From contig VIIQ02000047.1 of the NCBI GenBank assembly GCA_007449985.2, positions 444,001-508,000 on the forward strand: DNA of 64,000 nt. Direction: 5' to 3'. Made by a program: the position numbers and the translations under genes. The notes under the pieces were generated by a model. The model did no database searches and was not told the origin of the DNA. It was given only the letters and a program-made list of their open reading frames with translations. The stretch comes from Desmodesmus armatus. Taxonomy: Eukaryota; Chlorophyta; Chlorophyceae; Sphaeropleales; Scenedesmaceae. Positions 14,285 through 63,734 of the stretch are shown here, one piece after another; positions within the stretch are counted from its first letter, which is position 1, and each line of letters opens with the position of its first letter.

Positions 14285-14378
14285 TGGCATGGCTGGGATT
14301 CGAACCCAGGTCCTTCTGCAAGAGTTCTGAGCCGGATTGATACGATGAGCAGATGTCATTCCACTAGACCACCACACC
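14285..14378 (-). tRNA. tRNA-like gene with a probable intron, anticodon unresolved
   Basis: Read on the minus strand it folds as a cloverleaf. The acceptor stem GGTGTGG/CCATGCC (two G-U pairs) uses 14372-14378 and 14286-14292, with discriminator A at 14285. The D arm is GTC...GAC. The anticodon stem is TCTGC/GCAGA (14349-14353 and 14315-14319). The variable loop is AGGAC, and the T arm is CTGGG-TTCGAAT-CCCAG. The anticodon loop holds 29 nt rather than 7, implying an intron of about 22 nt. With the canonical intron site, position 33 would be C, not U, so the anticodon cannot be assigned safely (ATC by that rule; CAT if the stem is shifted by one). Internal A and B box sequences are present. 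A tRNA pseudogene or SINE head is the alternative. Confidence 0.6.
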
Positions 14379-21389: not shown

Positions 21390-24300
21390 TCACAGTACCT
21401 CCAGGGTGACCCCGTGCTGCTTGGCTAGCTCGACCAGTGCAGCAACGTAGCGAGCATGGAAGGATGCCAGGTCTTCCTCTGGCTGGGGCTTCATAGGCTT
21501 GCCGATGACAACCTGCAGGTACAACCGCACAGCAGACAGTGCTGACATGTGTCAACGTGATGTCCAAATTCAACAAGAGTGCAAGGCGATATTATGCATT
21601 TATCGGATAGGAAAGGCTCTGAAACCCACAGGCATTGCTTGAAGGGAACTGACTCACTGCGCAAGCAGTAGCAGGATGTGCAACATAGACAGGGTGCTTC
21701 TGCACTGCCATATTTGCTTCAGGCATCATCGGATGAAACTTGCAGCAATTGCAAGCTCCTAAGCAGATCATAGAGTGCTGTGATCTCTGTCACGATGTCA
21801 CAGCGCCGCAGCATGAGGACTGTGCATGACAGTCGGCACAGGGTTGCGCCCAGCAAGCAGGCGCTCACATGCAGCAATGCCGCACTCAGTCGGACCAACT
21901 GGGTCCTGGTTCAAGCTGCAGCAGCTGGGGCAATTCACATCAGCACTGCAAACTCTGATCAAGCACACGTTCAGTGCCCAACCCCATCCAAGAGCATGCT
22001 GCATTCAAGACTCACGTGCACAGGGACGCGCTTGGCAGGCAGCAGCAGCGCAGCGGTGAAGGTGGATGCGTAGGCACCCCCCACATGCTCTTCCCCCACC
22101 CCCAGCACAGGCACTAGCTGGGCTCCAGTCTCCATTGCAAGGCATACAAAGCCCAGCCGCTTTGACAGCACCACCTTGTTGCTGCGCTTGAAACGGGCCT
22201 CTGCCAGGCCACCGGGTGCGATGGCGATGGAGGTGCCCTCCTTGCTCTGTGCAGGAGTGCAGGAGTTCAGGCAGCGTGCACTGTGTGTGAGATAATGAGC
22301 GCCTGGTGAATTCAGAGCTTGCAGCGCAGGCAGGCCTGTGTGCGCAGCATGGCCTGTGATTAATTGGGGGTCATACACAGCTAGATAGGGGGCAAGAGTG
22401 TGCAGGCAACGTGTGATGTCTGTGACACATTGAGCGCCTGCCATTGAATCAGTTCAGAGCAGCAGTTGTAGCACAGGTATTGCTTGTGTGCGCAGCATGG
22501 CCTTTGACAAATTGAGGGTTTTACAAAGCTCAAGAGGGGGCAACAGTGAGCAGGCACCGTGCTGCTTCTGGACACTGGGCACTGGGCCCTCACATGCGGC
22601 TGGGCAATGAGCATGTGCAGCAAGGGCGTGCCTTACACCTTTGCGCATGTTAAGCGGCTTATTTGAGCCCATCGTATATGCATATGATGCAGGGTCAGCA
22701 CGATAGCAGCGCCGCACTGAGCAACGCATGCAGCCCACCTGAAGTTTCTTGAGGAGGGTGTCCTTGTCGAGTGCGCAGCCGCCCAGGATGCTGTAGACGT
22801 GCCTCACAACAGGAATGCTGAGCAGGGTGTTCACAACTGGCAGGGACACCCTGTAGGCACATGCGCAGCAGTTGAAAGCATACACACGGGGGGCAGGTCA
22901 GCATTTGCGCATTTGCAATGCATGCTTGGCCTGCCAGCCTGGCATTAGCCTCAGTAGGTTCAATTGACCAGGCTGGCAGTGTTCATGTACAGGCAGTACC
23001 ATATGGTACGTTGATGCCGCCTTGAGTTGGCACACAGGGAGCTGCGCAAAATGATCATTCCTACACCCATGCAAGCTGCATTGCTGCTTTTCACAGAACG
23101 ATACTCAGAGTGTGTTTCAAAGATGCATCCAAGGGGTGCTGAGCCCCCGCCCAGTAACAGCAAACTTAGTACACACCTGATGCCAGAGACGGGTGACTTG
23201 CGCCCAGTGAGTCCAAACACCAGCCACAACCCGCGCGCCAGCCTGCCATGTGGATGGTAGCCAAACAAATACTTCTGCTCAGGGTCAAAGGACACGCTGC
23301 CTGCGCAGGAGACGCTGCAAGCATATGCGCCCCGCACCGCGTCCCACACCGGCAGCCGCCTGAACCAAGTCCATCCAGTAGTAGACACCGGCATCAGCAC
23401 AACACAGCACAGCGCTGCTAGGCCGGGGGTGCTGAACAGCATTGGCAGCAGCCACTTGACGTTTGCGAGGGTCCAAGTGACCGCAAGGTAGTAGGCCAGG
23501 TTGTAGACCAGCAGGAGAGGAGAAGCGCCAGCACGCGTGTCCCCCTTGCCGCTGATGTGTGTGCCGCACCAGTCGTCCCAGTGACGGAAGTACAGGGAGA
23601 GGTTGTAGCGGCCGCGCTCATGGTGGTATTGATGGTCGGTGGGGCTGTGGGCTGTCCCCGTGAACAGCAGGCACGCAAACAGCGGGTTCAGCACGACAAG
23701 AACCAAGGGGCTACTGTACCGCATGCCAGAGTGGCCGATCATGCCCAGCTGGGTCGACACAATCATCGGCGCCACGAGAGTTGGAATGTTGGCGAACATC
23801 ACGCCATCCAACACACGCGTGAACAGCTGCATGTTGAGTGCAAGGGTAAAGGCATAGGGGATGCAGTGACCCAAGATGGACTCGGCCGAGGTGATGATCA
23901 GCCCTGTCCTTGCCTCCAACATGACCCTAGGGTCGTGGTGGTGTGCATGAACATGCCTATACAGCCACCGGTTGGCATGCAGGGCCCTATGCAGGAAATA
24001 GTAGTACGCATCATGCAGCAGCAGCATAAGCATAGTGGCCCACAGCAGATTGAAGGGCTGTAGGCCATATTCAAACACGATAGGCCACAAGGCCCCTGCA
24101 TGCGCAATTGTGCCGAAAGCCACAAGAGGCACCATGGTAATCATCGTGGCTGAAAACATGTCCCACACGACCCCCTGCCATGGTGCTGATATGTAGTAAT
24201 CGGAGGTGCGCACAGCTAGACCCTTGCGCAACAGCCAGGGCGCATAGACATAGTCGAACAAGATGGCTGTAATTGTGGGCACGACCCCGATGGATGAATA

Positions 24301-24417
24301 GGTTGCGCAGGCGCGGAGAGCCTCGGAGGAGTTGAATCTGCCGTTGAAGATGCCCCAGTTTCTTGGGGACAAAATGTACTTGATCCCCCTGCTGGCACCT
24401 GCAGGCACAATGCACAT
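21390..24417 (-). CDS. fatty-acid hydroxylase/sterol desaturase domain fused to DGAT2-type acyltransferase
   Basis: Exons on the minus strand are 24417-23177, 22850-22739, 22246-22016 and 21512-21390. All junctions are in phase, giving about 568 residues. Residues 1-300 are a membrane di-iron oxidase of the sterol desaturase superfamily. They carry HRALH at 143-147, HxxHH at 157-161 and HQYHH at 262-266, with several hydrophobic spans around them. Residues 380 to the end are a DGAT2/MOGAT acyltransferase: YLFGYHPHG (HPHG at 388-391), then SIAIAPGGLAEARF, LSKRLGFVCLAMETGAQLVP, VLGVGEEH and a C-terminal VVIGKPMKP segment. DGAT2 proteins esterify acyl-CoA to acylglycerols, sterols or alcohols at the ER or lipid droplets. 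The fusion suggests oxidation and esterification of one lipid substrate, which is inference. The start ATG (24417) lies only 18 nt before a good acceptor-like cag, so the true start may be in an upstream exon. Confidence 0.88.
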
Positions 24418-25641
24418 GCAGCGGCAGGCTCAGGGAATTGACGTAACGCATTTACCACTGAGGATTGTGAGGATTGTGGACATTGATACAGGTCAAAGCT
24501 TGAGAATGGAAGGCTGGTTGAAGCCTGCGCCCAGTGAACTTCAGCTTGAAGCCTTGCCCGACTGCCCATGGTTCCCCCCCGCCCCCTTGGCATGACGGAC
24601 TCGGCAGGCTTTACAAGCCACACCGAGGGTTGGTGGGAGCGAGCAGACACAGGAGCAGTGCGCACCTGGCTTGCCTGCGCTTGAAGCAGACTGTCCCGCT
24701 CTGGTCTCAGCAAAGCACTGGCGCCCAGCACTCCCTCTGTCTGAATGGTCCTGCAGAGACAGGGGGTGACAGCATGTACGCTTATGAGGCTAGCGCCCGA
24801 TCAGGTGTCTCAGCAACAGCGGTAGGTTGCAGCAAGCGTCCCTGCCACGCTTGTTACTGACAGCAACTGGCGGTTCATGTAACAGCAGCCAACCCAGACT
24901 AGTCCAGTACTGTTACATTGACAAAGAGGCAAAAAGGGGGTGGTGACGCCTTAGGCACTGCCGGGCTGCTAGCTGAGATGCTGCCAGCAAACTTGCACTA
25001 CCCATGCACCCCATGGTTTGAATCAGCAGCGCCCACACTGTGCATTCATTGCATATTGCTGATCAATGCACATTGCTGAGCAATGTGCAGGGTGTGTAGC
25101 ATCCATCTACCTGCTGAACCCACTGGGTTTCACAAACACTAGTCATGCTGCGGCCTGTCATCTCAGTAGTACCGCTTTCTACTGCGCTTTCAGATGACAG
25201 GCCGCAGCATCACTGGTGTTGGTGAAAGGGGCTGATGGGCAACCAGCTGGGGTCCATGCAGCACTCACCAGAGCAACATCAGCCTCCAAAGAGGCCTCAG
25301 GCGACTGCTGCTGGAGGTTGCGACAACGGGCATCCTTTGCCAGACTGTCACTGGCCAGCCGTGCATGGCCTGTGCCGAGCATTTCTGCGGGGGGCCAGAG
25401 CCAGCAACGGGCAGAAACATATATGTGGACGAGAGGAGGAGAGGTCAACTGCTCAAGCAGTTGGTGACGCGGAAACAACCGCACACATCAGGACAGGCTC
25501 ACCACCCCAGCGTCAAACGCAGGTCGCTGCATGGTCATAGTGGTATGATACTAGATGAAAACACAATGCTCGTGCTTGCTGGCTTGACCAGCGATCGCTT
25601 GCGAGTGGACTTCTCGAAGCCTTAGCCAAGACGTGACACAC
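24418..25641. other. intergenic, with one hairpin
   Basis: No gene is called. A minus-strand frame at 25179-25484 (ending SAPFTNTSDAAACHLKAQ) looks partly coding. It could be a second exon of the small secreted gene to its right, but the phase does not fit that gene's first exon. Confidence 0.4.
25131..25224. repeat. 94-nt hairpin, 33-nt arms
   Basis: Arms 25131-25163 and 25192-25224 match at 30 of 33 positions, with the innermost 19 bp perfect. The 28-nt loop contains a further stem (cagtag/ctactg), so the fold extends nearly to the tip. It has the size and shape of a small-RNA precursor. Confidence 0.8.
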
Positions 25642-48614: not shown

Positions 48615-50086
48615 ATGAAGCAAGGGTCAAGGGCAGCAGCGGATGGGGAAGACCCAAGCACCAGTACAGCAGCAAGGGCCCCAGGCACGAGACAAGCAGC
48701 AGAAAGGGAGCCAGACTATCCAGTTCTACGTAACGTGGCCACAGGCAATCCAGCTATAGCAGCAGATGCATTCCTGGTGGATTCCCCAGGCCCGGGTAGC
48801 CCCCAAGTACTGGGCAGCTTTGCTTTTGAAGCACAGCATCCAAGGCCATCTACTGCTGACACATCCAACTTTGGGTGGGTATCTCGAGATGGCTTTGATC
48901 GAGACTTTCAAGCCAGCAGCAGCCGATGTAAGCTGAGACAAAGGCCTTCTGAGCAGCAAAACAGCAGCTCGATGGAACAAGCTCGCCAACATACATCATG
49001 CCACAAACATTACCATCAGCCAAACCATCAACCTCGTTTGAAAGGCAGCCAGTCTCAGTAGCGGAGACTCTTCCTGTAGGCTTGCCATCCTGGGGCATAT
49101 TCCTTGCACATGTATGTTTAGAAGAGTTGTGGCCATCTTAGTTTGAAGTACGCGTCTGCAGCATATCAAGCTCACACTTGCTTCTACTGCTGCTGCTGCC
49201 CATCAACAGGTTCCACAGCCCCCTAACCAGTCCCCACAAGCGCCGCCAGCAGCAGCGCTACAACAATGTGGCAACGCCCTCCACCATCAGCAGCAGCAGC
49301 GACGACGGCAGCGGAGCATTCAGCCGCATCAACGCCTATCCCCCAGTGGCGCCCACAACACGCGCCACACCGCAGGTGGGTCACACAACTTGACAGTATG
49401 ATTGCTGCTTTAAGAGGGACATATGACCCGGTCATGTGCAGTGCTGTGAGGGCAGCACTTTGGCACAGTCTGCTGTAGACTTCGGTGTTCAGAGGGGGGG
49501 AGGGGGTCAGCCGCATCAACACCTACCCCCGGTGGCGCCAACAACACGCGCCACACCACAGGTGTGTTGCACACAACGTTATTATCACGCAGCCTGGGGT
49601 ACAGGGAGTAATGACTATGCTATTATTGCAGCACGTCGTCAAAAATGGGAGTCACTAGGCTGTGATGAAATTGCACCAACTTGGTATTAGGCTAATACTC
49701 AGGTGGTGGTGCAATTTCATCACAGTACATTGACCGTGTCACAGTTTTTTTCTTCAGTGTGCACGGATGATCCGTGTCAATGTATACACGGATGCCCTCA
49801 GCAGCCCCTAAGTGCCAATGCCACTGGCCAGCACCGCAATTCAACAAGTCTCGGACGGTCCTCCTGCTGAGGAAAATGCCAATTTCTTGAGGCACAACAA
49901 CCCAGACCAGCATGCAAACATCATCTGGATTTTGGTGCCGCAGCAGCTTATGAACAGCAGGCAGGATTGCGACAACAGCCGCTGCTGTCGGAGTGACATG
50001 CGCAGCGGGGCGTGAAATTTTGGACCACATGTTGACAGTTTGCTGTCAAGTCACCTGAACCATGGATGACATGATGTGTGGTGACC

Positions 50087-50140
<54 letters not shown>

Positions 50141-53100
50141 GCCGCTGCTGCTGCAGGGCTTTGATCAGATCATCAAGGGCAAGTACCTCAAAGGCCATGA
50201 GGCAGCACACAAGGCGACAATGAAGAAATACAACATCAGCAGTGATGGTGGCAAAGGCGGCGAGGTGATTAAAAAAGGAGGACTCCTTCGGCGATAACAA
50301 AGAATACATCAAGGAGGCGCCTGCGCAGTGGTGCCATGGAACTCCCCAGGAGCAGCTGCAGTATGCACAGCCCAACAAGCTGTGGTGCATGACGCCGCCC
50401 AGCCCCCCCCCCCCCCCCCGGGAGGGTGAGGATGCCGGGCTAGTGTCGTTATCATGATGAAGAATAATAATAAATGATATAAACATCTTTTATGTTTTAT
50501 AATTATCATTAATCAGGGGTCTGGGCTGTGGTGCATGACGCCGGGCACTGCAGTGGACTGCAGTGACTGCAGCACCCCGGGGCCCGTGGCTTGATGCCAA
50601 CTGACTAGACCTGCTGTGCGCTGGTCAACAAATTTACAAAAAAAATCCACCAACGTTTGGCCGTCTTGCAGGCACAGCCAGAACTGCGCTTTGCCCAGCC
50701 CAGCAAGAAGGCAAAGCCCCCAGAGGACTCGCAGCCTGTGACCTACCAGTGGAACTGCATTGGCATCCTGCTGTGCGGCTACTACATCGCAGCAGCGATA
50801 TACTACTTCGTTATCCGGGCTACTCGCACACTCAACATCGGATACACCGGGTGAGCTGCAGCCCCTGTGAATGCACTGAACGGCATTTGTCGGCAGCCAC
50901 TGCTCCGGCGCACGTGCAGCTGCGTATAGTGTATACAGTGACGAGCCTGTTCAGCGATTGGCAAGCTTTGCCGCCAGGCAGTAGTTCTCGAGTCCACCAG
51001 CTGTCCAGCGTCCCTGCAGGCAGCCTACTGCCAGCTGACACTGTCATGGCCGCCAGTGGTGTCACATTATGACATGCTATGTCCCACTGCAGGTACGGCA
51101 ACCTTGTGCTGGCTGTGGAGGTGATCTCCTCAACCGCCACCATCGGCTATGCCGTCCTGCTGATCAAGCAGTCAAAGCCCAGACCCAGCCTGGGGCTGCC
51201 AGTTGCAGACCCCAACGTACCGCTGCACCCAGATGACGTCATGTTCAACCTCAGGGTGCTGGTGCCCTGCTATAAGGAGAAGGTGAGGTTGGTGAGGGGT
51301 GGGGTGGGTGGTTTGGGGGGGGGTGACGGGGGGGGAGTGGGAAGGGGGGGGGAGGGTGGTTGGGCAGGAGAGCCTTATGAAGTGGCTACTGTTGACTTCA
51401 ACATTCAGCTCTCTGAAGATGACATCATGTTCAACGTTAGAGTGCTGGTACCCTGCTACAAGGAAAAGGTGAGGTCACCCCGGGCAGCCTTGGCCACTGG
51501 TGTGACACATGTGCCGCGCAAAAATAAGGGGCAATGAGGAGGGGGGGGGGGTGAAAGCGGCCTTTGGGGGGTGGGTTGGAAAGAGGGTGTGGGAAGGAGT
51601 GTGTTGGTGGGTGTCTTACTAGCCGGTAGCAGACCCCAACGTACCGCTGCACCCTGATGACGTCATGTTCAACTTCAGGGTGCTGGTACCCTGCTATAAG
51701 GAGAAGGTGAGGTGTCAAGCTTGTGTGAAAGGAAGCCTGCAGCTGGGCGGGCGGAGCCGTCGGTTTAACCTCAACAGGTTTTCAGGTTTGGCTCGTTTGG
51801 AGAGGACCTGTGTGCGGCCATTTCACCAGGAGCAGCGTGCGGCGGTGCAGTGCTGCGCCATAGTGCTTGATTGAGGTTGAGAATCACTGACGGCCCGGTC
51901 CACGGTGGTTGCTGAGGGCATGTCATGCTGATGTGTATGTTTGGCGCGCACAATGCTGCTGCAGGTTGACATCTTGCGTGACACAGTGATGGGTGCCCTC
52001 AACGCTGCACTGCCCATCGGCACCAAGCGAACCATCTACCTCTGTGACGACCTGCCAGGTGCGCCCGGCGCATGCGTGTGACACAATTAAAACTAATTTA
52101 ATTGGAAGCAGTGCTGCTGCAAGACAGCTTCAGTGCTTGATGGTAGTCACTTCTGGAAGCATCTAATCTTGCTTGACTGCAAGCGTGATCGCAACAGTGC
52201 AGGCGTTGGCAGTGTCAGCAGCTGCTTACCTTTTTCAACCACCCTTATAAGGACCCTAATCAGCTTCATTGTCAGCCTAGTTGTCTGCTGCAATCACATC
52301 TACACCTACTCTGCCTTCCCGCATTGCTGCTGCTGCTGCTGCCACCAGATCCTGAGAAGGAGGAGATGATGCGGCAACTAAACCTGCAGTACGGCAACTG
52401 CGTCTACGTCACCCGCAAGCTGCGCAAACATGAAAAAGAGGCTAAGGAGAGGGCAGAAGCGGCAGAGGCAGCAGCAGCCGCAGCAGCACGAGCCAGCCTG
52501 TCAGGTGGGTGGCTGTCGCTTGAGGGGGCTCGGGGGGATTTGATCCAAGTGCCTTACAGGGCGTGAAGCCAATGGGAGGTAATCCTATGGCGTTACTGGG
52601 TCACCCAGTGGAGGGAGTCCCGGGCTTCGGAAGCATTATTATCATTAAATGCCACGACGTCACGTGTATCGTCATCCACTCATATGGACAGCTTGAACCA
52701 TCACGTCGCCAACAGTAGGTCCCTGTGGGTTCTGGTCAGCCTGTACGGATCAGCTCTTGAGGCAGCAGCCGCAGCAGCACGGGCCAGTTAGTCAGGTATG
52801 CCGCATACGGCTGGTGTAACCAGGCGGCAGGGAGCCAGCGCTGAGGCTAGCCTCATGGTGGGGCAGCGTTATCTTAGAATGCGGCTTTGTTTGACTGCAC
52901 CCAAGCCCGCATCGTAATCACCACCCAATCTAGTGTGTAGGGAGCACAAAGTGCAGCAGCCATCCTCACCTTGTCCAGAAGCGTCAAGGTGTTGAGTGGA
53001 CTGTGAATATGGTGATGTTTGCAGGGGGAGCAGCTGATGCGGAGCCCAACACGGTGAGCACTGCTTGGCAGGGCCTGACATTGGCACATACTCAAAGGTG

Positions 53101-56100
53101 GCCTTGAACATTTTGGGCTACTGTATAGTCAAGGCAAACATTCAATGTCCCCCCCCCCCTCAGAGGCCCTGGAAAAAGCAACTGGTGTATGATTGTGCCA
53201 GTCATGTGCGCATACAGCAGCCGAGCAGTTGTCACTGGCAAGTTGCCAACCACTCTGTGACATGGAGGTATTCAACCCTGACGGCTTCCCTGCTGCTGTG
53301 CATTTGCAGGGCTGCTTCCCCTGGTGGGCTGACAAGGAGGAGATTGTCACCAAGAAGGCTCAGGGCAAGGAGATCAACGGAAAGTCCAACAACCTCAACA
53401 ACTGGTGAGTGCATTCATGCGAGGCCACCTGTCCCACAGGTGTGCGGCAGTCACTGCAGTACACCCACCCCAGCTTGGGTCAGCCCTAGTGCACAGCTCA
53501 GCTAGCCAAGCCAGAAGATGTTCATCAACACGGTGATCAGGGATCCAAGTCCAAAGATCTAGTAGGGTCAATGATGTGACTGTCTTTGCGGGATTTGCAT
53601 GCGGTGTTAGGGGTTAGGTGTGGGTTTTTGTGTCTCAGAACTGTGCCGGCTACTTTGTCTGTCTGCTGTACTGTTGCAGCTTGCGCAATGTGATATATGC
53701 TGACTATGTGGACACCTACAAGTCAAGGGCAGTGGGCAGCTCTGGAGCAGGTGAGCCTACCAACTTGAACACACTGTCTTACTGCCAGCAAATGCCATTT
53801 ACTTGAGTCGATTTTGGCTGTGTAACTCATACCATGTCCATATCTTCTGCTTGATATGAGAAGTACCAGTGAGGTACTTCTCACATCAAGCAGCTGATAT
53901 AAGCATGACATGTGTTACGCAGCCAAAATCGGGGGGCCAGTGTAGCATGCAGCACCAGGGCGCACTCAGTTGCGCTGGTTTGTGCGTCAACCAACGACGC
54001 TGTGTCAGAGAGCACTGGGCATGCCCTGGTGCTGCATACGCGCCAGCTGCGGTTGTACTCGGCCGTGGCCCCGCCTGTATTCAATGCTGTATCGTTGATG
54101 CACCTCGTGCTTTCTGCACGATCAAACCATGCATGATCAAGGAATTGCCAATGGCGCTGCTGTGCAGTCACAACTTGAGTGTGTAGCAGCGTATCAAAGG
54201 AATGTCAGGCTGAAGCTCAGCATCGGATATATGCGCATGTGCTTTGCAGGCCCCTGATTCCCAAGAGTGAGGTGATGGTGGTGCTGGATGCTGACATGGT
54301 CGCTGAGCACGACTTCTTTGTCAGGTAGGAGCATCTGACTGGCTGTACGGTAGCCAGGCTAGTAGCTAGTTGCTATCCATCAACCTAACAAGCTTGTCAC
54401 AGCTGAAACTTTCAAAGGCTAGAGGCTAGTACTACCAAGAGGCTAGTAGCCTCTTTCAAGCCTGTCACTGCGGCAGTCACAGTGCCTCTGGCAGTGACTG
54501 CAGCCAGCCGCTGGCTGGCATTTTGTTGTGATCCAGCAGACCATCAGGCCGAGAGTCCAACTTAGGTTGTGATACACTGGCTGTCAGGCTGCCAGACTGT
54601 CAGCACAGTAAGAAACTATGTGGCATTACAGCAACTCAGCAGTCAGTGGTGAGGTGGGGTGGAGTCTGTTGTGTCTTGACACAGGGATATTACTAATCCG
54701 GGAGCTGCTTTATTGTTGTCTGTTGGTGCAGGATCCTGGAGGTCATGGCAGATGATGACATTGCACTGACACTCACGCCCCAGGCCTTCCACAACGTCAA
54801 CGTAAGCAGGGGGCACTGGCAGCACCTGTCACGAGGGGTTTCGGCTGTCAAACACTGCCAGAGTTTTCCGTACTACGCTCGCTACCTGGCAAGGCCTTTG
54901 GCATATGGTATAGTCGCTGCGGGACTGATGTGTGGGGCACCACAGGTCGGGCCGCACTGGCCATATGCGCAATGCACAGTAAGCATATCATGACGGGCGT
55001 GGGCCACACGTGTCTTCAGCTTGGTGACCTCTCTCTGCCCTGTGTTTTGTTGCTTCTTGTTCGTGCAGCCCCAAACCGACATCTTCAACAACCTCAACCT
55101 GTCCTTTTGGGAGTACATGCTGCCAGGCACTGATGCATACAGGTGAGAAAGCAAGGGGTGCTGCCGTTTGCACGCATGTGGTACCTCAATATCAAAGTTA
55201 CACCTATAACTATGAAGCTCAAGAGTTCATGCCAGCCATTCACTGATATCACGGAGATGGCAGAACAAACTTTGGCAGAAACTTGTTCGTTCATACAGCG
55301 TCCAGTGCCATTGTTGGCCCAGTGATGTTGCAGCCGGCTGCACAGCCGGTGGCGCTGCCATAAGAGTGAGAGTGGGCTCAACCCTAAACCCTAAGCCCTT
55401 GACCTAAACCCTAAATACAATGAGTTATGTGTGTATGTCCCATGTGCAGGTATGTTGCCTGTACCGGCACCAACTTCTGCCTGCGTGTGCACCCCCTGGC
55501 TGAGTGTGGCTGGTTCCCTGACTACTCCATCACTGAGGACTACACACTGGTGAGTGGGGAAGAACGGCACACATAAGCTGGTGAAGAGCAGAGGCATTTC
55601 AAGGGTTAGAAGGGTCACTAGACGTACGTGCACGACTACGTTCAACATGTTGGCAACGGAGACCAAGGAAGGAAGGATTCCTTCCAGGAACTGGAAGGAA
55701 CTCAGCTTGTCTTGAGCAGAAGTTTGATTTTTCACATGTAGCGTACTGCCTGCTGACACACATTCGTAGATTGGATGCGGCTGACCGTTGGCATGTGTGC
55801 ATTATGTGTCTGTAGGGAATGGAGCTGAAGGCAAAGGGGTTCAAGGTGAGCTGCTGCCAGCAGATCAAAGTTTGATCAGCAAAGGGGCTCAAGCTTGAGC
55901 TCAGTGCGTTGCCTCATCCCTTCATATGCTCCGAGAGCCTTCACGTTGGGCCAATGTGGCTGGGCCATGTCTGTCAGGTCAGCGTAGAACTTCTACGGTG
56001 TGACTGTGTGCTTATCATCCAGTGACATGTGTATACTGTTTGTGGGATCCTTGTCCTTCACCCCCCCTGTACTTCCTGCAGGCCCGCTACTTGAATGAGT

Positions 56101-59100
56101 ACCTAGTGAAGGGTGAGGCCCCCACCGACCCCCGTGGCGTGTTCAAGCAGCGGTCGCGTTGGTGCAAGGGTCAAATCCAGGTGAGGCCGCTGCTGCATGC
56201 ACCTGCTTTCCAACACAGCACCCCCACTGGACACTGGGCGCTGTTGGCCCCTGAATCAGATCCTTGATACCAGTTGGTCTGCTGTTCATGTCCGTATCAG
56301 CAAGCGAGCCATGCACCAGTGGTGCATGTGGACCAACAAGCCCTGACGTGAAGCCCTGTTCCTGCCACTGCTGCTGCTGCTGCTGTTGCTGCTGTGCTGC
56401 TGCTACTGCTGCAGATCTTGTTTGACAAGCAGCACACCCCCATGCTTGACACCGGTCTCACATTGGGCATGAGGCTGCTTTACACATCAGGTGCGGGGTG
56501 TTGAGCGTTTACACTTGTCGGTGACACCAACGGGCGGTCTGCAACCAAAGGCACCTGTGCGTGCAGCGTGCAGGCCGCCCCCATTGAACATAGTGTGCAG
56601 GCAGTCGGCAGAATGTTCTGTCCAGCCGGCCTGCACTCTGCAGATGTCAACAAAATCCTTGATTTGCCAGCACATGCATGTGCATGGCATGCACAGACCA
56701 AGCAAGTAGCGGTGTTGTCCACAACATATGTGATATCATTTTCCCGCCTCAAGTTGCACCCAATTCACCGTTACTGTGATTCGATCAGTCAGCCGGGCTG
56801 TGAAACCCTGAGACCTGCTGCTGTGACGTGTGCTGTGTACATGACCACTTGTTGTCCTCCAGTGACCTGGTCCTACATCACCAACACAGTGGCTGTGCCC
56901 TGCTCAGGTAAGAACCAGCAGCTCACACATGTTTGCTGCAACCGTTAGTAATGTGATACACAGACTGTCCTGGAATCCTCTGAGGCATCATGTGAGAGAT
57001 TGCCTCACAGCGTTGGCTGTCAATGACTGTCACTGACGCCATCGTGGCTCTACGGCGGCCCAGTGGTTGTAGCACAACCCCTTGCCCAACCTGTCCCATT
57101 CAGAGACTTCAAGTCAACAAGCTGTCACATCTTCCTTGTGTGTGCTGCAGTGCTTGTGCCGTTCATCGCCCTGTTCTTTGGTGTGTACCCCCTGGTGCTC
57201 AACAGAGACTTTGCACTGGCAGCAACCCTCTACTTCACATCCTCATCACTTGTCACATCGGTGAGCCCCACCGCAAAATAGTATTTTGCTGTGCTTCCTC
57301 AGGAAGCAAATTGCGTTTGGTGTTTAAACCCATGAGACAGCTGTAGGCTGTGCCACACTCTTCCAGCAGCCTTGTGTATGCTGCATGCACAGTACTGTGC
57401 TGCACAAACGGATGTTGTGCATACTACTGCAACGTGCTGCTGTTCCTGTTGCTGTTGTTGTTCTGTGCTTGCAGTACTGCCGCGATCGCAAGCACGCCAA
57501 GCCCATGTGGTTCTGTGTGGTGTCCTGCCACATCCTGTGGTTCACTTTCACCAAGGCAATCTTCAACGTGATCAAGAAGAAGATCACTGGTGAGCACCAA
57601 AACCAGGCCCTGGCTAATACTAGTGCTTGCAGTCACTAGCCATAGCGGCAGGTAAACGGGATTTCTTGGGTTTCAAACCCAAGTTTGGCCACCCACAAAA
57701 CGTCTGAGCAATGGTGGTGCTGTCTTGGCATGCAGGTGGTGTGACCTCATTCAAGGCAACCGACAAAAAATTGGTCAACAAGAACCCCCAGCAGCAACAA
57801 GACCAAGCACAGGACGAGGCCGATAAGCTTCCCTGGCACAAGATGAAGAACCTAGGAGACATGGAAGGCACACTCGACGGCTGGGTGCTGTTCATTTCCT
57901 TCAGCCTTTCTTTCATCACGGCGATTGTGGGCGTCTTCCAGATGATCGACAGGCCATACACGGCACAGGTATGTTTTGCCGCGATGTCGACGAGCAGATG
58001 CTGCTGCCGACAGCGCTGTGCGCAGTCGGCACAGCGTTCGGTTGGCGGTTGGTCGCAGCGCGCAGCTGCGTTGGCACCATCATGTTGTGATCACAGGAAA
58101 CTTACGTAGTGGCACGTGTGGTGTTTCGCAGGGGGAGTTCCGCTGGTTCTTGGCGCTGTCCATTTTCTGGGCGTTGTACAACATGATCCCTCCCTCGCTC
58201 TTCATATTCTACCTGTTCAAGTCCGACGGCATCTTCGAAGACTACTGCTCCTTCTGCTTCGTTACGTCATTCATCCTCGGCATTGGCGGCATCATCTGCA
58301 CGTGGCTCGTGCCCGATGACTACAATCTGGGTCAGGTGAGGGCTAAACGTTTGGTTGGACAGCTAGCTGATGACTGCTTACATGACAGCAGGCGATACCG
58401 CTGAGGACCCACCAGTGGGGGCTGGGGATCGTCAGTGCGCGAGCATGCTCCTGCTGGCTGCAGATCGGGAAGCCATGCTTCCAGGTGGTACACTGTATGG
58501 CATACTGCGGTACGCCCTAGCAAAGCTTGAAGCTGGGGGCCCCTAACCTAAGCAGACTCTGCCGGGCTGACTTCCTTGGTATTGGTGGTGCTTGTGCTGT
58601 AGGTGCTCAACGTGTCGATGCAGTTCTTTGAGGCTCAGCGCTCTGGCCGCCTGCCGCGCATATCCAACGTGCCGTGGCGCGGGAACAGCGCAATCTTCGA
58701 CTCAGTGCTGCTGTCTGGCAACAGGAATGTGTCACTGACTGGCGGCTGGTGAGTTGCACTGCCAGTCTGAACGGGGGGGGGGGGGGGGGGGCTGGGCTAT
58801 AAGCACCCGCGGCAATAGGCTTGCCCAAGTATGTGCGAACCTGTGGGATGAGCTGGGGTCCATGTGGCATGCCTGTAAATTAGTCACGAAGGTAGCACCA
58901 CAAGCTGCTGCACGCGGTAGAGCTACCAGGTATACCTGGCAGGTCATAGTCACTCATGTAACACAACATCTTGTTGAAAGCTGTGGTTGTAAAAATGTCT
59001 CAGGTATGATGATGGCGGCATGCTGAAGGTCACCTACAGCACAGCCTTCACCGTTTCCCTGCTGAGCTGGGCCTTCATGCAGTTCAAGGAGGGATACAGA

Positions 59101-61695
59101 GCATCAGGAAACCTGGACTTTGGCGCAAACACTGTCAGGTGTGCGGCTGCTTGGCGCCCAATGATGGCGTTAGCCTGATGATTGCAAGTCTGCTGTACAA
59201 CATGTGTAGTGCACATTCCTGCCACGGCGGTTCGTCTGCTGGACAAGGCTTGGAATCTTGCACAGAGGCTTCGCAACCTCCATACTACACCAGAGAGCAG
59301 CTGCTGTGGCAGAATACGTAAGCCTTGAATTTTGAGCCTGAAACCAAAAACCCAAGATTTTTAAACCCTTGGGCATGCTGCGGTGTTTCTCTGTCGCTGT
59401 TGTCAGGTGGGGTGGTGACTACCTGGTGAAGACTGCCATCACCGATACAAGCGCTTCTGCCGATGTGGTGCAGCTGGTGGCGCAGGTATGTCTATGGTTC
59501 AAATCTGTCTGGCCATCTTGGCTGTTATCAATGCCATGAAAGTGTCACTGGCAGACTCGGTCTCGATAGGAAGATTCATAATCGGTCTCGGGCGGAAGAG
59601 CTACGGGTTCAGCATCACTACCCACTATTTATTCCACTTTGAAGTACAAACCAAGCCTGCAGCAGCAGCCAGTTGCACTGCCAGTAGTGGCACTACAGAT
59701 GGCTCTACACTGGCATGCAATCCTCATTGATTAAAGCGCCTGACAAAACTGCCCCCGAATAGTTGAACCAGTTTTGTTTCAGCCGCTCAGAGGTTTATGT
59801 TGTCGCACAGATTGGCAACCTGACCCGTGACCGCAACTACTGGGGTATGCCTGAGCGTGCCAACATCATCCGCCCTGTCACCTCCCTCACTTCCACAAGG
59901 GCTGGCACAGATGTGGTGGCCATGACAGCTGCTGCCCTGGCCGCGGCTTCGGTAGCAATAAAGGACGAGTCCTCACAGGTATGCACCTGGCCTCGGGCTG
60001 AAAACTGTTGTTGGCGGCTGGGTGCCCTGGTTCTTGCAGCTGCTCGACACCTGTGTGCATCCGATGAGTAAGACCTAATCTGTCTGGCTGGAATAAGTCA
60101 GAACCTACCAGCCTGGTACTCCGAGCCTCGGAAAGCAGCTGCTAGGGTGGCCGAGCACTTCAACTGCTGTCAAGTCACACACACATACGCTGACAGAGGC
60201 ACAAACACCTATGCCACTTGCTGCTGTACTTCTGTCCTTGTACAGAGCGCTGACATCTACCTGTCAAGGTCGATAGCTCTGTACCGCCTAGCGGCCCGTT
60301 GGCCGAAGCAGACCTACAACAGGTTTGTGGAGACGTCATCCATCTACCCCTCCGCCAGCATCTACGATGACCTGGCATACGCTGCAGCATGGTGAGGCTG
60401 TACTGTGCGCTTGTTCAACAGTAGTGTATTGTCACATCAAATTGATTGATTGATAAGTGGTGGAGAAGCTGTGGTGACGTGCAGTCATGCATTACGCCGC
60501 ATGGCATGCTGTCGTTGGCGCCCGACGTGCCTGCATGAAGCAGCAGCGTTGCAATGTTGTCATACATCACTGCAGCACGGCACAAGCGTGTCACGGGCTT
60601 CTGCAGCAGCACGCACAGGGCGTGTCGGTACCTCTGTTGACATGCCGCGCCGCACACTCAGTGGAGGCTCCTTTGTGTGTCCCATATTGTGTTCACCTTG
60701 TTTTGGGGGAGCAGATGCTGCGGCGTAGACACAGTCGCCGCACATCAATGGATGTGTGGCGATTGGCGTTGCCTACCGAGAATGAGCTGGCTGGAACCAT
60801 AAGCCTTGATTTTTTTGCTTTGCCTGTTCAGGTTATATGAGGCCACGGGTGATGCCGGCTACCTGACTGAGGCAGAGGCCTTCTACGAGCGCAGCAGGAC
60901 CACGGAGAGGTTCACAAACCCCAACCCAGACCGCTTCTCCTACGAGAACGTGATCCCAGCCCTGCACCTGCTGCTGTACAAGGTAGGCATAATGATCAAT
61001 TTGTTGGTCCACAGAGCAGCCTGTATTTGCCGCCTCCCTGGTTTTGTTGCAAACTGCAACAGACCTAGGGCCGCCGAGCACATACTGGCAAGTACACGCA
61101 TCGCCATTGCATAAATGAAGCCTGTATGCAGCGGCATTGTCAAGATCAGCTGCCGTGCTGCTCTGCCGTCCCACAGGGCACCAAGGACCCCGCATACAAG
61201 TCCGCCACCCAGTCCTTCATCAGCAACTGGCTCGCCTCCAACAACCAGATGAGCAAAACCTCCGCACAATTCTCATCTCCAAATGACCCCGGGAGGAGGA
61301 GGAGCTCGTGGGTACGTATCGCGAGGATTGAGATAACCGTTACCGGACTGAATCGGACGACACACACCCTGCTTTGGGCGGCACCGTGCCTCTCTAGTGA
61401 CTCTAGAGATCTGCAGATCTGTCAGCATCCTTACCACAGCATGGCCTTTCACAGTGTGTCAAACACACATGCGAGCACTGCCCAACACACCTGCTGCACG
61501 GCTGCTGTTACGATTACAGGTATCTACTACACGCCCAAGGGCCTGGCAAAGGCGCAGCCGGGCGGTTCGCTGCAGCACACGGCAAATGCTGCCTTCCTTG
61601 TTATGGCGGCGGCTGATGCGGGGGTGTACCCGGCGAGCAGGTTCATGCGGCATGCGTGCTGGGTGCGCAGCCAGATTGGATACATGCTGGTAAGT

Positions 61696-61727
<32 letters not shown>

Positions 61728-63734
61728 CTGGGCATCTTTGTGCAATGCCGTAAGGCAGCCAAGGTTGACATGCACACTATGTCACGCGGCAGTGCTACAT
61801 GTCATGCTTTGAAAAATCCCTACCAAACAGTCATAATGCTGGAAAAGTTTTCAAAGTGGGGCCCACAGGAGGCTGCGGACTGCTATGGTAGTCACACTTC
61901 GAAGTTGAAATCAACGGTGCACCGTGAACCATTCACGTGTGAGCGTACGAGCCGCTGGGCCAGCAGCTCATCTCAGAAGAATGGATTGAGGTCTCAGAGC
62001 AAGTCTGCTGTGTGTTTTGCAGGGTGACGCTGGCAAGTCGTATGTGACAGGCTATGGTGCCATCCAACCCCGCAAGACACCTCACAGGGTGAGCTGGTGG
62101 CAGTGTGGGGTGCCGTGCTGAATTGTGGGGCCACCCGTGGCAAATGCAGGCGTGCTACCAATGCCGCATTCCGGGACCGGGTCCCAGCACAAGGCTTCCG
62201 CATGTCTGCCACGACCATACCAGCCACCAACATGATGCAGTGCTGGCGTGTGCTGTCGACTTGACGCCTGTGCTTGTTGTCTCTGCTGCTGCTGACGCTG
62301 CAGGCTGCATCCTGCCCTCCACCATACCAATCAGACTGCACATTTGAGTCTGCCTACTTCACAACAGGTGTGTTTGTTACCACATCCATTGTCCATCGAG
62401 TGTTGGAAAGCGCACAGCATGCTGCACGGCATCAGCAGTTGGCTTTGGATGTTATGATCCTGTTCCAGTCCTCTTCTCCTTCGATACAGTTTGACCCAGC
62501 ATGCGCGCGCACTGCCTCTGTCATTCACCACTGCCCTGCTTCTGCACTGCCGGTGCAAGTTGCCTCCCTGACCTTCCCCGGGAAGGTCCCTTCCTGGGGG
62601 AGGCTCCCCCCAGATCCCAACTTCCACCAGCTGCCAGGTGGCCTGGTGGGTGGTCCTGATGACTTTGACCAGTCGGTTTGATGACAGGGACCAGTTCAAC
62701 CCCGCAGTTACCTCAACCCCCTTGTCGGAATTTCGGCGACTGTTACCAGCACCCCACTCCTGCACTGCTTGCCGCCCTGCCCTTCCCCTTTCCCCCAGAT
62801 CCCAACTTCCACCAGCTGCCTGGTGGCCTGGTGGGTGGTCCCGATGACTTTGACCAGTGGGTGGATGACAGGGACTAGTTCAACCCCGCCCCACGAGGTG
62901 CACCTCGTCCTAAATTCTGCATAGATTACTAACGCCCTGCTCTATTGCCATACTTCTGCACTGCTTTCCCCCATCCCCTCTGCCCTCTTCCTCCCCAGAT
63001 CCCAACTCCCACCAGCTGCTTGTTGGCTTGGTGGGTGGTCCCGATGACTTTGCCCAGTGGCTGAATTCCCATCCCCCCCCCCCCCCCCCGGTGGTCCTTG
63101 GCAGGGACCAGTTCAACCCCGCAGTCAGCCTGTTGGATGATGCCCCACTGCTGCACTGCTGGCCTCCCTGCCCTTTCCCTTCTCCACAGATCCCAATTTC
63201 CACCAGCTGCCTGGTGGCCTGGTGGGTGGTCCTGATGACTTTGACCAGTGGGTAGATGACAGGGACCAGTTCAACCCCGCAGTCACCGTCAGCCTGCTCA
63301 ACAACGCAGGATTCTCGGCTGCGCTGGCGGGATTGGTGCGTATGACATCAACATGGCCAAGTGCCAGCAGGGCAACGGCTTCATCCAGGTGAGGCTCGCA
63401 TTGCACTGTACATGTGTGTTGCTGTCGTCCAAAAATGCAAACATCGCACTGACACATGGATGCAGGGCTTGTGGGCCAAACCGGTTTGTGCTGTGCTGTT
63501 CAAAGCCTGCGGCTGGTGGAAATTGTTGGGATAGACGAAGCCGGTGCACACAATGCGCATAATGCAGTCATCGCTTACTGCTGCTGCTGCTGCTGTTGTT
63601 TGCAGACGCTGATGCTGAAGGCTCAGGGGCGCAGGGAGACTGACGGGGCCAAGTGGTGGGGGCAACTAGTTCAGTGGCACACAGCCTGTGTAGCGGCAGT
63701 GTGTGCGTGCAGAAGCCTTCAGTGCAATCCTTAG
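48615..63734 (+). CDS. cellulose-synthase-like GT2 glycosyltransferase fused to GH9 endoglucanase-like domain
   Basis: Core exons, with phases checked: 50672-50850, 51093-51282, 51965-52058, 52349-52504, 53025-53053, 53310-53404, 53680-53721, 54250-54324, 54732-54801, 55069-55142, 55450-55549, 55816-55845, 56082-56180, 56415-56490, 56863-56907, 57151-57260, 57475-57589, 57736-57968, 58132-58335, 58603-58748, 59004-59138, 59407-59485, 59811-59978, 60246-60391, 60832-60982, 61177-61315, 61520-61689, 62023-62088, 62304-62367, 63190-63335. The 5' exons (48615 to about 48,927; 49210-49375; 50157 on) are less certain. The GT2 part has two N-terminal membrane spans, then LCDDLP, VLDADM, ITEDY and KQRSRW, all four catalytic motifs, then about seven spans. 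The GH9 part follows directly (FFEAQRSGRLP, WGGDYLVK, GDAGKSYVTGYG, GGL near VGGPDDFD). Plasma-membrane beta-glucan synthesis is inferred. The end is open: coding may continue through 63389 and 63606 to the stop at 63734. Confidence 0.85.
49319..49562 (+). repeat. duplicated exon segment in the N-terminal region of the GT2-GH9 gene
   Basis: The end of exon 2 (49319-49375, encoding SRINAYPPVAPTTRATPQ, followed by a gtgggt donor) recurs at about 49,508-49,562. The second copy also ends in cag|gtgtg but has lost the frame. Confidence 0.7.
49660..49725. repeat. 66-nt hairpin, 19-bp perfect arms
   Basis: Arms 49660-49678 and 49707-49725 are perfectly complementary. The loop contains a second stem, gtatta/taatac. 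It lies in an intron of the GT2-GH9 gene. Confidence 0.88.
50091..50139 (+). repeat. CTG microsatellite at an intron 3' end
   Basis: A CTG run forms the pyrimidine-poor tract before the acceptor at 50156. CTG/CAG runs precede other acceptors here too (for example 52330, 56365 and 10140). Confidence 0.85.
51202..51706 (+). repeat. triplicated GT2 exon segment
   Basis: The segment DD(V/I)MFNxRVLVPCYKEK occurs three times: at the end of exon 5 (to 51282), as a 60-nt unit 51409-51468, and as a 74-nt unit 51633-51706. Each copy ends in a GTGAGG donor, and copies 2 and 3 have their own ag acceptors. Copy 3 also repeats the upstream ADPNVPLHPD. G-rich DNA separates copies 1 and 2. Confidence 0.88.
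53809..53931. repeat. 123-nt hairpin with 59-nt arms and 5-nt loop
   Basis: Arms 53809-53867 and 53873-53931 align without gaps, with 49 of 59 positions matching and most mismatches able to form G-U pairs. It lies in the intron before the DADM-encoding exon. Confidence 0.88.
55381..55416. repeat. interstitial CCCTAAA telomere-type repeat
   Basis: Degenerate CCCTAAA units (accctaaaccctaagccc, then cctaaaccctaaa) lie in an intron of the GT2-GH9 gene. Confidence 0.7.
62614..63300 (+). repeat. fourfold tandem copy of the last GH9 exon
   Basis: Units starting after a cag acceptor at 62614, 62799, 62999 and 63190 (spacing 185, 200 and 191 bp) each encode versions of DPNFHQLPGGLVGGPDDFDQ. Copy 1 loses frame at gtcggtttga. 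Copy 2 has a TAG in place of DQ. Copy 3 is interrupted by a poly-C insert. Copy 4 is intact and used in the gene model. Confidence 0.88.

Follow-up and report, generated by a model that had tools for sequence, protein, structure and literature searches.

A GT2 synthase joined to a GH9 cellulase fold with replaced catalytic residues, predicted from a gene of Desmodesmus armatus

Background

KORRIGAN, a plant GH9 enzyme, and BcsZ, a bacterial enzyme of family GH8, are glucanases that serve cellulose synthase as separate, active partners. Here we describe a predicted gene of the green alga Desmodesmus armatus in which a GT2 glucan-synthase part is fused to a GH9 cellulase fold that is, unlike these two (likened here by description only), very probably inactive. 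The gene lies in a stretch of 64,000 nucleotides (GenBank assembly GCA_007449985.2, contig VIIQ02000047.1, positions 444,001 to 508,000 of the forward strand), here called the window, whose own numbering is used throughout; an earlier note on this DNA had drawn attention to it.

The GT2-GH9 architecture itself is already known: Blanc et al. (2012) described CesA-GH9 fusions in Coccomyxa subellipsoidea C-169, in 4 of its 9 GH9 proteins, drew the comparison with tunicates and, in the passages available to us, gave a tunicate-like cellulose synthase-like domain for only three algae (PMC3446292). By this published description both domains are in one protein there, as in the window; those passages are silent on catalytic residues, whereas the type found in the window has carriers in the Chlorophyceae and its catalytic pair is replaced. 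Tunicate CesA-GH6 likewise joins a synthase to a cellulase fold with a changed catalytic Asp, although it is an animal gene and its hydrolase-like domain is of GH6, while that of the window is of GH9 and not GH6. The accessible part of one account describes this Asp as unconserved and leaves the activity undetermined (PMC7464555); by contrast, the GH6 domain is elsewhere said, in the passages available, to have cellulase activity (PMC3446292). The earlier note had taken the algal fusion for an independent version of the tunicate solution: the parallel holds and runs deeper than was supposed, in that the GH6 domain too has lost its catalytic Asp, but the architecture had already been reported in Coccomyxa.

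Among bacteria, P0164 of Nitrospira moscoviensis resembles the window protein in having its synthase and its glucanase fold on a single chain, but its match is to GH8, stands before the synthase and is accompanied by PilZ. Together with P0153 it makes the bacterial GT2-GH8 combinations a third case of a hydrolase family joined to cellulose synthase. As far as the parts of the two papers at hand go, GH9 is either missing from Chlamydomonas and Volvox or present there as fragments (PMC5977491), and the CESAs of linear complexes, for which there is ultrastructure in Chlorophyceae, were not found in the genomes analysed at the time (PMC3797821). The loss of GH9 catalytic residues in these fusions, their two subfamilies and their spread in Chlorophyceae are not described in the literature examined, supplements and most subscription papers being outside our reach.

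Results

Synthase and cellulase fold in one polypeptide

The gene (+ strand) is predicted to begin at 48615 and to end at about 63670, as a single run of 34 exons with GT-AG borders, which together would encode about 1,360 residues by the sum of their lengths. The order is an N-terminal stretch, two membrane spans, the GT2 core, further spans, a six-residue linker, the GH9 fold and a tail common to relatives. A Pfam search of the spliced protein, proposed in the earlier note, matched both parts: Glyco_tranf_2_3 with 73.9 bits (E 2.5e-20) and Glyco_hydro_9 with 303.6 bits (E 4.1e-90; residues 814-1264, profile positions 3-443 of 444). All four GT2 motifs that had been noted (LCDDLP, DADM, TED and QRSRW) are in the window protein and in its close relative P0001, so that the D, DxD, TED and QxxRW set of BcsA/CesA-type processive beta-glucan synthases is complete. 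Each of the seven solved sequences matched by the GT2 part is a cellulose synthase.

The claim that both parts lie in one polypeptide is confirmed by the single exon run and by relatives that are single proteins. The junction exons, 58132-58335 and 58603-58748, have the coordinates first proposed and join phase 0 to phase 0; they align with residues 631-698 (64/68 identical) and 699-746 (47/48) of P0001 with no break. P0001 has its 1192 residues in a single frame, and the contig that carries it, 5,025 bases long, is most likely a transcript, since the window gene has 33 introns. The join is continuous in other relatives as well, intron-free contigs included; P0003, P0004 and P0111, all labelled 'ORF type:complete', have accessions in the style of the transcriptome shotgun assembly (TSA) division, to which we presume their prefix belongs.

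Replaced catalytic residues

The GH9 fold is recognised by Pfam PF00759 and by a GH9 structure, that of the termite enzyme NtEgl (1ks8), the best solved match, whose numbering we use and whose numbers fit the chain as printed. In NtEgl we take Asp57 to be the base and Glu412 the acid, with Asp54 beside them; GH9 is an inverting family and needs both acid and base. In the window Asp54 is retained, but the base position holds Gly (YDDGG where YDAGD is usual), the acid position, in NPAVTVSLLNNAGF, holds Thr, and several cleft residues are lost, so the Asp57 and Glu412 of an active GH9 endoglucanase are not there. An alternative reading of position 412 as Val was rejected, the profile alignment and equal spacing to NAGF both giving Thr.

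The fused relatives fall into two groups, one of which we call subfamily A (Elliptochloris-type: P0017, P0129-P0134, P0137 and P0143, with P0130 as the named member). It has the architecture and linker of the window protein with DAGD and Glu412 intact: Asp54 and Asp57 are kept in 9/9 rows and Glu412 in all four that reach its column, five of the nine records ending before it. Glu412 is found in 85/93 stand-alone domain rows and in 0/22 of the fused proteins outside subfamily A, the window included (three of 25 lack the column); these carry Arg (9), Thr (7), Ser (4), Ile (1) or Ala (1), and the presence of Arg in both algal classes fits one early loss. Asp57 is kept in 93/94 stand-alone, 9/9 subfamily A and 6/23 other fused rows. 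DDGG is constant in the nine nearest rows, window included, and His359 has become Pro in 16/24. The motif alignment holds 3/9 subfamily A and 18/25 other fused rows, short rows being left out, and omits the stand-alone P0002, P0010, P0018, P0034 and P0092, some of which lack Glu412 and are counted in the all-row tally above. The endoglucanase proposed in the earlier note is thus not borne out, and the GH9 part of the window protein would very probably be a non-cleaving cellulase fold and not an endoglucanase acting in cis.

A comparable loss was seen outside the fusions: P0002 and P0010 of the tunicate Styela clava are multi-domain GH9 proteins, and five of their six domains have Gln or Lys in place of the catalytic Glu.

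Membrane layout

In BcsA and plant CesA the FxVT-like loop is cytosolic. Past the corresponding FKATDK loop the predicted model of P0001 has three helices (599-623, 634-659 and 663-689), all hydrophobic, in agreement with the three spans originally counted; spans were read from the model helices and from hydropathy. Since three spans follow it, the GH9 part would lie outside if the loop is cytosolic here too. The last of these helices ends at 689 and the next begins at 696, so that the GH9 part is predicted to begin some six residues past the last span, on the side where glucan would emerge. The short linker is the same in 30/33 database rows. A Cys pair (ASC...C), retained in many fused rows, fits an oxidising compartment, with no proof of one.

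Gene model

The predicted features, with identities to P0001 unless another relative is named, are as follows.

48615-48874, + strand: exon 1, predicted initiator ATG and N-terminus; weak likeness to the N-terminus of P0102
49210-49375, + strand: exon 2, ending in RINAYPPVAPTTRATPQ; weakly supported
50157-50264, + strand: exon 3, MKKYNISSDGGKGGE, outside the span first given; P0001 begins here (11/13 residues)
50672-50850, + strand: exon 4, first membrane span (52/58)
51093-51282, + strand: exon 5, second membrane span and GT2 start (52/63)
51965-52058, + strand: exon 6, GT2 motif LCDDLP (30/31)
52349-52504, 53025-53053 and 53310-53404, + strand: GT2 insert and GKSNNLNN (first 47/49, third 28/31)
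53680-53750, + strand: exon 10; the frame stays open if an alternative donor at 53722 is used, P0001 resembling the long form (14/23)
54250-54324 (DADM), 54732-54801 and 55069-55142, + strand: first half of a six-exon block, 54250-56180 (142/145 over the block)
55450-55549 (TED), 55816-55845 and 56082-56180 (QRSRW), + strand: second half of the same block
56415-56490, 56863-56907, 57151-57260 and 57475-57589, + strand: two predicted membrane spans and an interface helix
57736-57968, + strand: FKATDK loop and one span
58132-58335, + strand: two spans and the linker VPDDYNLGQ
58603-58748, + strand: first GH9 exon, joined in phase 0 to 58335 (47/48)
59004-59138, + strand: GH9 exon with the former catalytic site YDDGG (usually YDAGD), Gly at the position of the base Asp57
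59407-59485, 59811-59978, 60246-60391 and 60832-60982, + strand: GH9 exons, by P0001 alignment and Pfam
61177-61311, 61520-61689, 62023-62088 and 62304-62367, + strand: GH9 exons, by P0001 alignment and Pfam
63190-63388, + strand: GH9 exon with DQFNPAVTVSLLNNAGF, Thr at the position of the acid Glu412, then the conserved tail (44/50)
63606-63670, + strand: last coding exon, TLMLKAQGRRETDGAKWW, exact stop unsure (17/18)

The core exons of the span first proposed, 50672 to 63335, stand, but both its ends were too short. Three exons precede it, with a predicted ATG at 48615; exon 50157-50264 matches P0001 at 79% over 42 residues (E 4.7e-15 in a 168-sequence set), while the first two have a P0102 match of 33/122 residues (E 0.025). 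At the other end the gene runs on to about 63670 through a tail in common with P0001. Exon 53025-53053 was positioned by reading frame alone, its P0001 match being rejected as spurious.

Two intronic stretches, 51384-51475 and 51622-51713, duplicate exon 51093-51282 in its 3' part, splice donor included, at 74% and 95%, and are possible alternative or dead exon copies. The last large intron holds three upstream copies of the stretch 63143-63280, at 62567-62704, 62752-62889 and 62952-63089; relative to the copy at 62752 the others of this set are 62, 63 and 92% alike. Elsewhere in the window a Pfam scan of seven unspliced neighbouring frames gave matches in one, a 489-residue frame at 22960-24429 on the - strand with FA_hydroxylase (2.5e-14) and DAGAT (1.1e-6), which may be a second fusion gene, and a tRNA gene (50.2 bits) lies at 14285-14378 on the - strand.

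Relatives and trees

The same architecture was found in other Chlorophyceae, as the earlier note had suggested looking for. Three protein searches, each scoring the roughly 8,000 candidates that share most words, were followed by Pfam, and 31 of 166 distinct proteins among the matches listed have both domain types, not counting P0009 and P0123 (cut records) or P0075, in which GH9 (intact DAGD and Glu) precedes a GT2-like stretch (PF00535), the reverse of the window order. All named holders are green algae: Tetradesmus obliquus and Haematococcus lacustris (Chlorophyceae by lookup), Myrmecia bisecta and Elliptochloris bilobata (Trebouxiophyceae by lookup), Monoraphidium neglectum, M. minutum, Raphidocelis subcapitata, Chlamydomonas sp. 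UWO 241 and Trebouxia sp. C0006. In the Elliptochloris bilobata protein P0130, annotated at 1963 residues, a kinesin motor domain precedes GT2-GH9, which may be a gene-model join.

The GH9 tree of 52 rows holds 29 of the 34 fused rows, window included (P0013, P0107, P0115, P0119 and P0143, being broken or cut, were excluded), together with 23 stand-alone rows (22 of 90 and the termite reference). Subfamily A is a clade (100/99), and the 21 other fused rows lie on one side of a 91/90 branch, which is below the tool's bar for taking a branch as shown. Holding all fused GH9 parts together lowers the log-likelihood by 0.54 (p-value of the approximately unbiased test, p-AU, 0.45), and they may or may not have a single origin. 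The GT2 tree uses 53 of 78 matching rows, with the fused P0005, P0007, P0009, P0123, P0132-P0134 and P0137 unused, and sets 40 algal or unnamed-source rows apart from 13 bacterial ones (100/99). Apart from the pair P0124 and P0146, every large branch within the 40 contains fused proteins. The earlier note would have given way if related species encoded the parts separately: the nearest relatives do not, and 14 GT2 relatives without GH9 are interspersed among the fused rows. Among these, P0102 and P0105, whose sisters are fused, look like cut gene models; P0109, P0113 and P0117, which end alike after the last span, look truly unfused.

Discussion

We read the gene, with a probability of roughly 60%, as encoding one membrane protein, a BcsA/CesA-type glucan synthase followed by a GH9 fold that has lost base and acid, does not cut and handles the emerging chain. 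The sequence and its relatives show how the two parts are joined, by a short linker, and that the GT2 motifs are present and the catalytic residues replaced; the fold and the spans that would place it outside come from the predicted model of P0001. We infer that the product is a beta-1,4-glucan chain, that it is not hydrolysed and that it is guided. The synthase would extrude glucan, the GH9 fold, tethered by its short linker, would receive the chain without cutting it, and in this way it may guide the chain on its way out or help to order it. The kept linker and the constant replacement letters suggest that the GH9 part is in use.

Several observations weigh against this reading. Activity, binding and location of the GH9 part are all predictions, and the changes of Trp301 and Trp253 in the window may weaken sugar binding. 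Median identity outside subfamily A is 47% for GH9 and 60.5% for GT2 (36 pairs of nine proteins; three subfamily A proteins were also compared), and in only 4/36 pairs is GH9 identity at least that of GT2; this faster change calls for caution on whether GH9 is in use, since constraint on it may be weak. The six non-A fused proteins that retain Asp57, and eight stand-alone rows without Glu412 (P0010 twice, P0092, P0099, P0100 and three of the four P0002 domains), blur the division between the classes. The GH9 parts of 17 non-A proteins show no surplus of N-glycosylation sequons (53 observed against 55.1 expected), so that these lend no support to an outer location there, while three subfamily A proteins have 8 where 3.7 are expected. 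Finally, the GT2 part of P0001 scores 111.4 bits with TIGR03030 (NCBIfam, UDP-forming cellulose synthase; curated cut-off 699.1) and the window protein falls just under Pfam Cellulose_synt (23.1 vs 24.7), so that cellulose is no more than a presumed product.

The faster change of GH9 could mean that the GH9 part is a decaying passenger whose function is lost and that the synthase alone matters, as the loss of catalytic and cleft residues and the apparently unfused P0109, P0113 and P0117 would also allow. We consider this unlikely: GH9 is near full length in most fused records, the linker pattern and the replacement letters are kept, and in P0003, P0004 and P0006 of T. obliquus GH9 is at least as similar as GT2 (73-74% against 62-73% identity). 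The weak scores to bacterial cellulose synthase models raise the further possibility that the product is a different chain, for instance mixed-linkage glucan, and that the GH9 fold handles that polymer; CslO relatives of various microalgae are discussed as likely mixed-linkage glucan synthases in the part of one paper seen (PMC9915684). Against this minority view are the solved GT2 matches, without exception cellulose synthases, and the inner cellulose layer ascribed, in the text available, to Scenedesmus obliquus walls (PMC11839794).

It is improbable that the copy in the window is a pseudogene while the rest of its family works. Relative to P0001 there are apparent one-base length differences near 54251, 61291 and 63341, the stop region differs, and degenerate exon copies sit in introns; but each exon has an open frame, identity to P0001 over aligned columns is 95% for GT2 and 85% for GH9, and all three differences lie in short same-base runs, like long-read assembly errors, which they probably are. 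Use of the donor at 53722 avoids the first and leaves the frame open from the ATG to 61311, 1134 residues in a model that lacked exon 50157-50264, whose 108 bases preserve the frame. We also hold little hope for an active endoglucanase trimming or editing nascent glucan in cis, in the manner of KORRIGAN or BcsZ; the full fold, the retained Asp54 and the intact residues of subfamily A speak for it, and other algae may have a fused cellulase that is active, but an inverting GH9 enzyme needs the two residues that the window protein lacks, the acid being lacking in every non-A row that has its column. That two adjacent genes were wrongly joined, conceivable for a model predicted from genomic sequence, is hardly credible given the phase 0 splice, the 111/116 junction residues identical to one continuous relative and the many other continuous relatives, and separate genes were rejected on these grounds.

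Our preferred reading, a fused GH9 fold that handles glucan without cutting it, leads to a more tentative proposal. Core green algae may possess a synthase with a non-cutting cellulase fold built in at its exit, kept since before the split of Chlorophyceae and Trebouxiales as a chain guide or a part of microfibril assembly, with tunicates having done alike with GH6, and it may be a candidate for the missing linear-complex synthase. The fused case bears on the open question of why a cellulase partner is needed by cellulose synthases, and the absence of the cutting residues from one large group and their presence in its sister group would be a natural experiment separating cutting from binding. 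The window gene would be a candidate for the linear-complex synthase of the Chlorophyceae, of which the accessible part of one paper reports the ultrastructure (PMC3797821).
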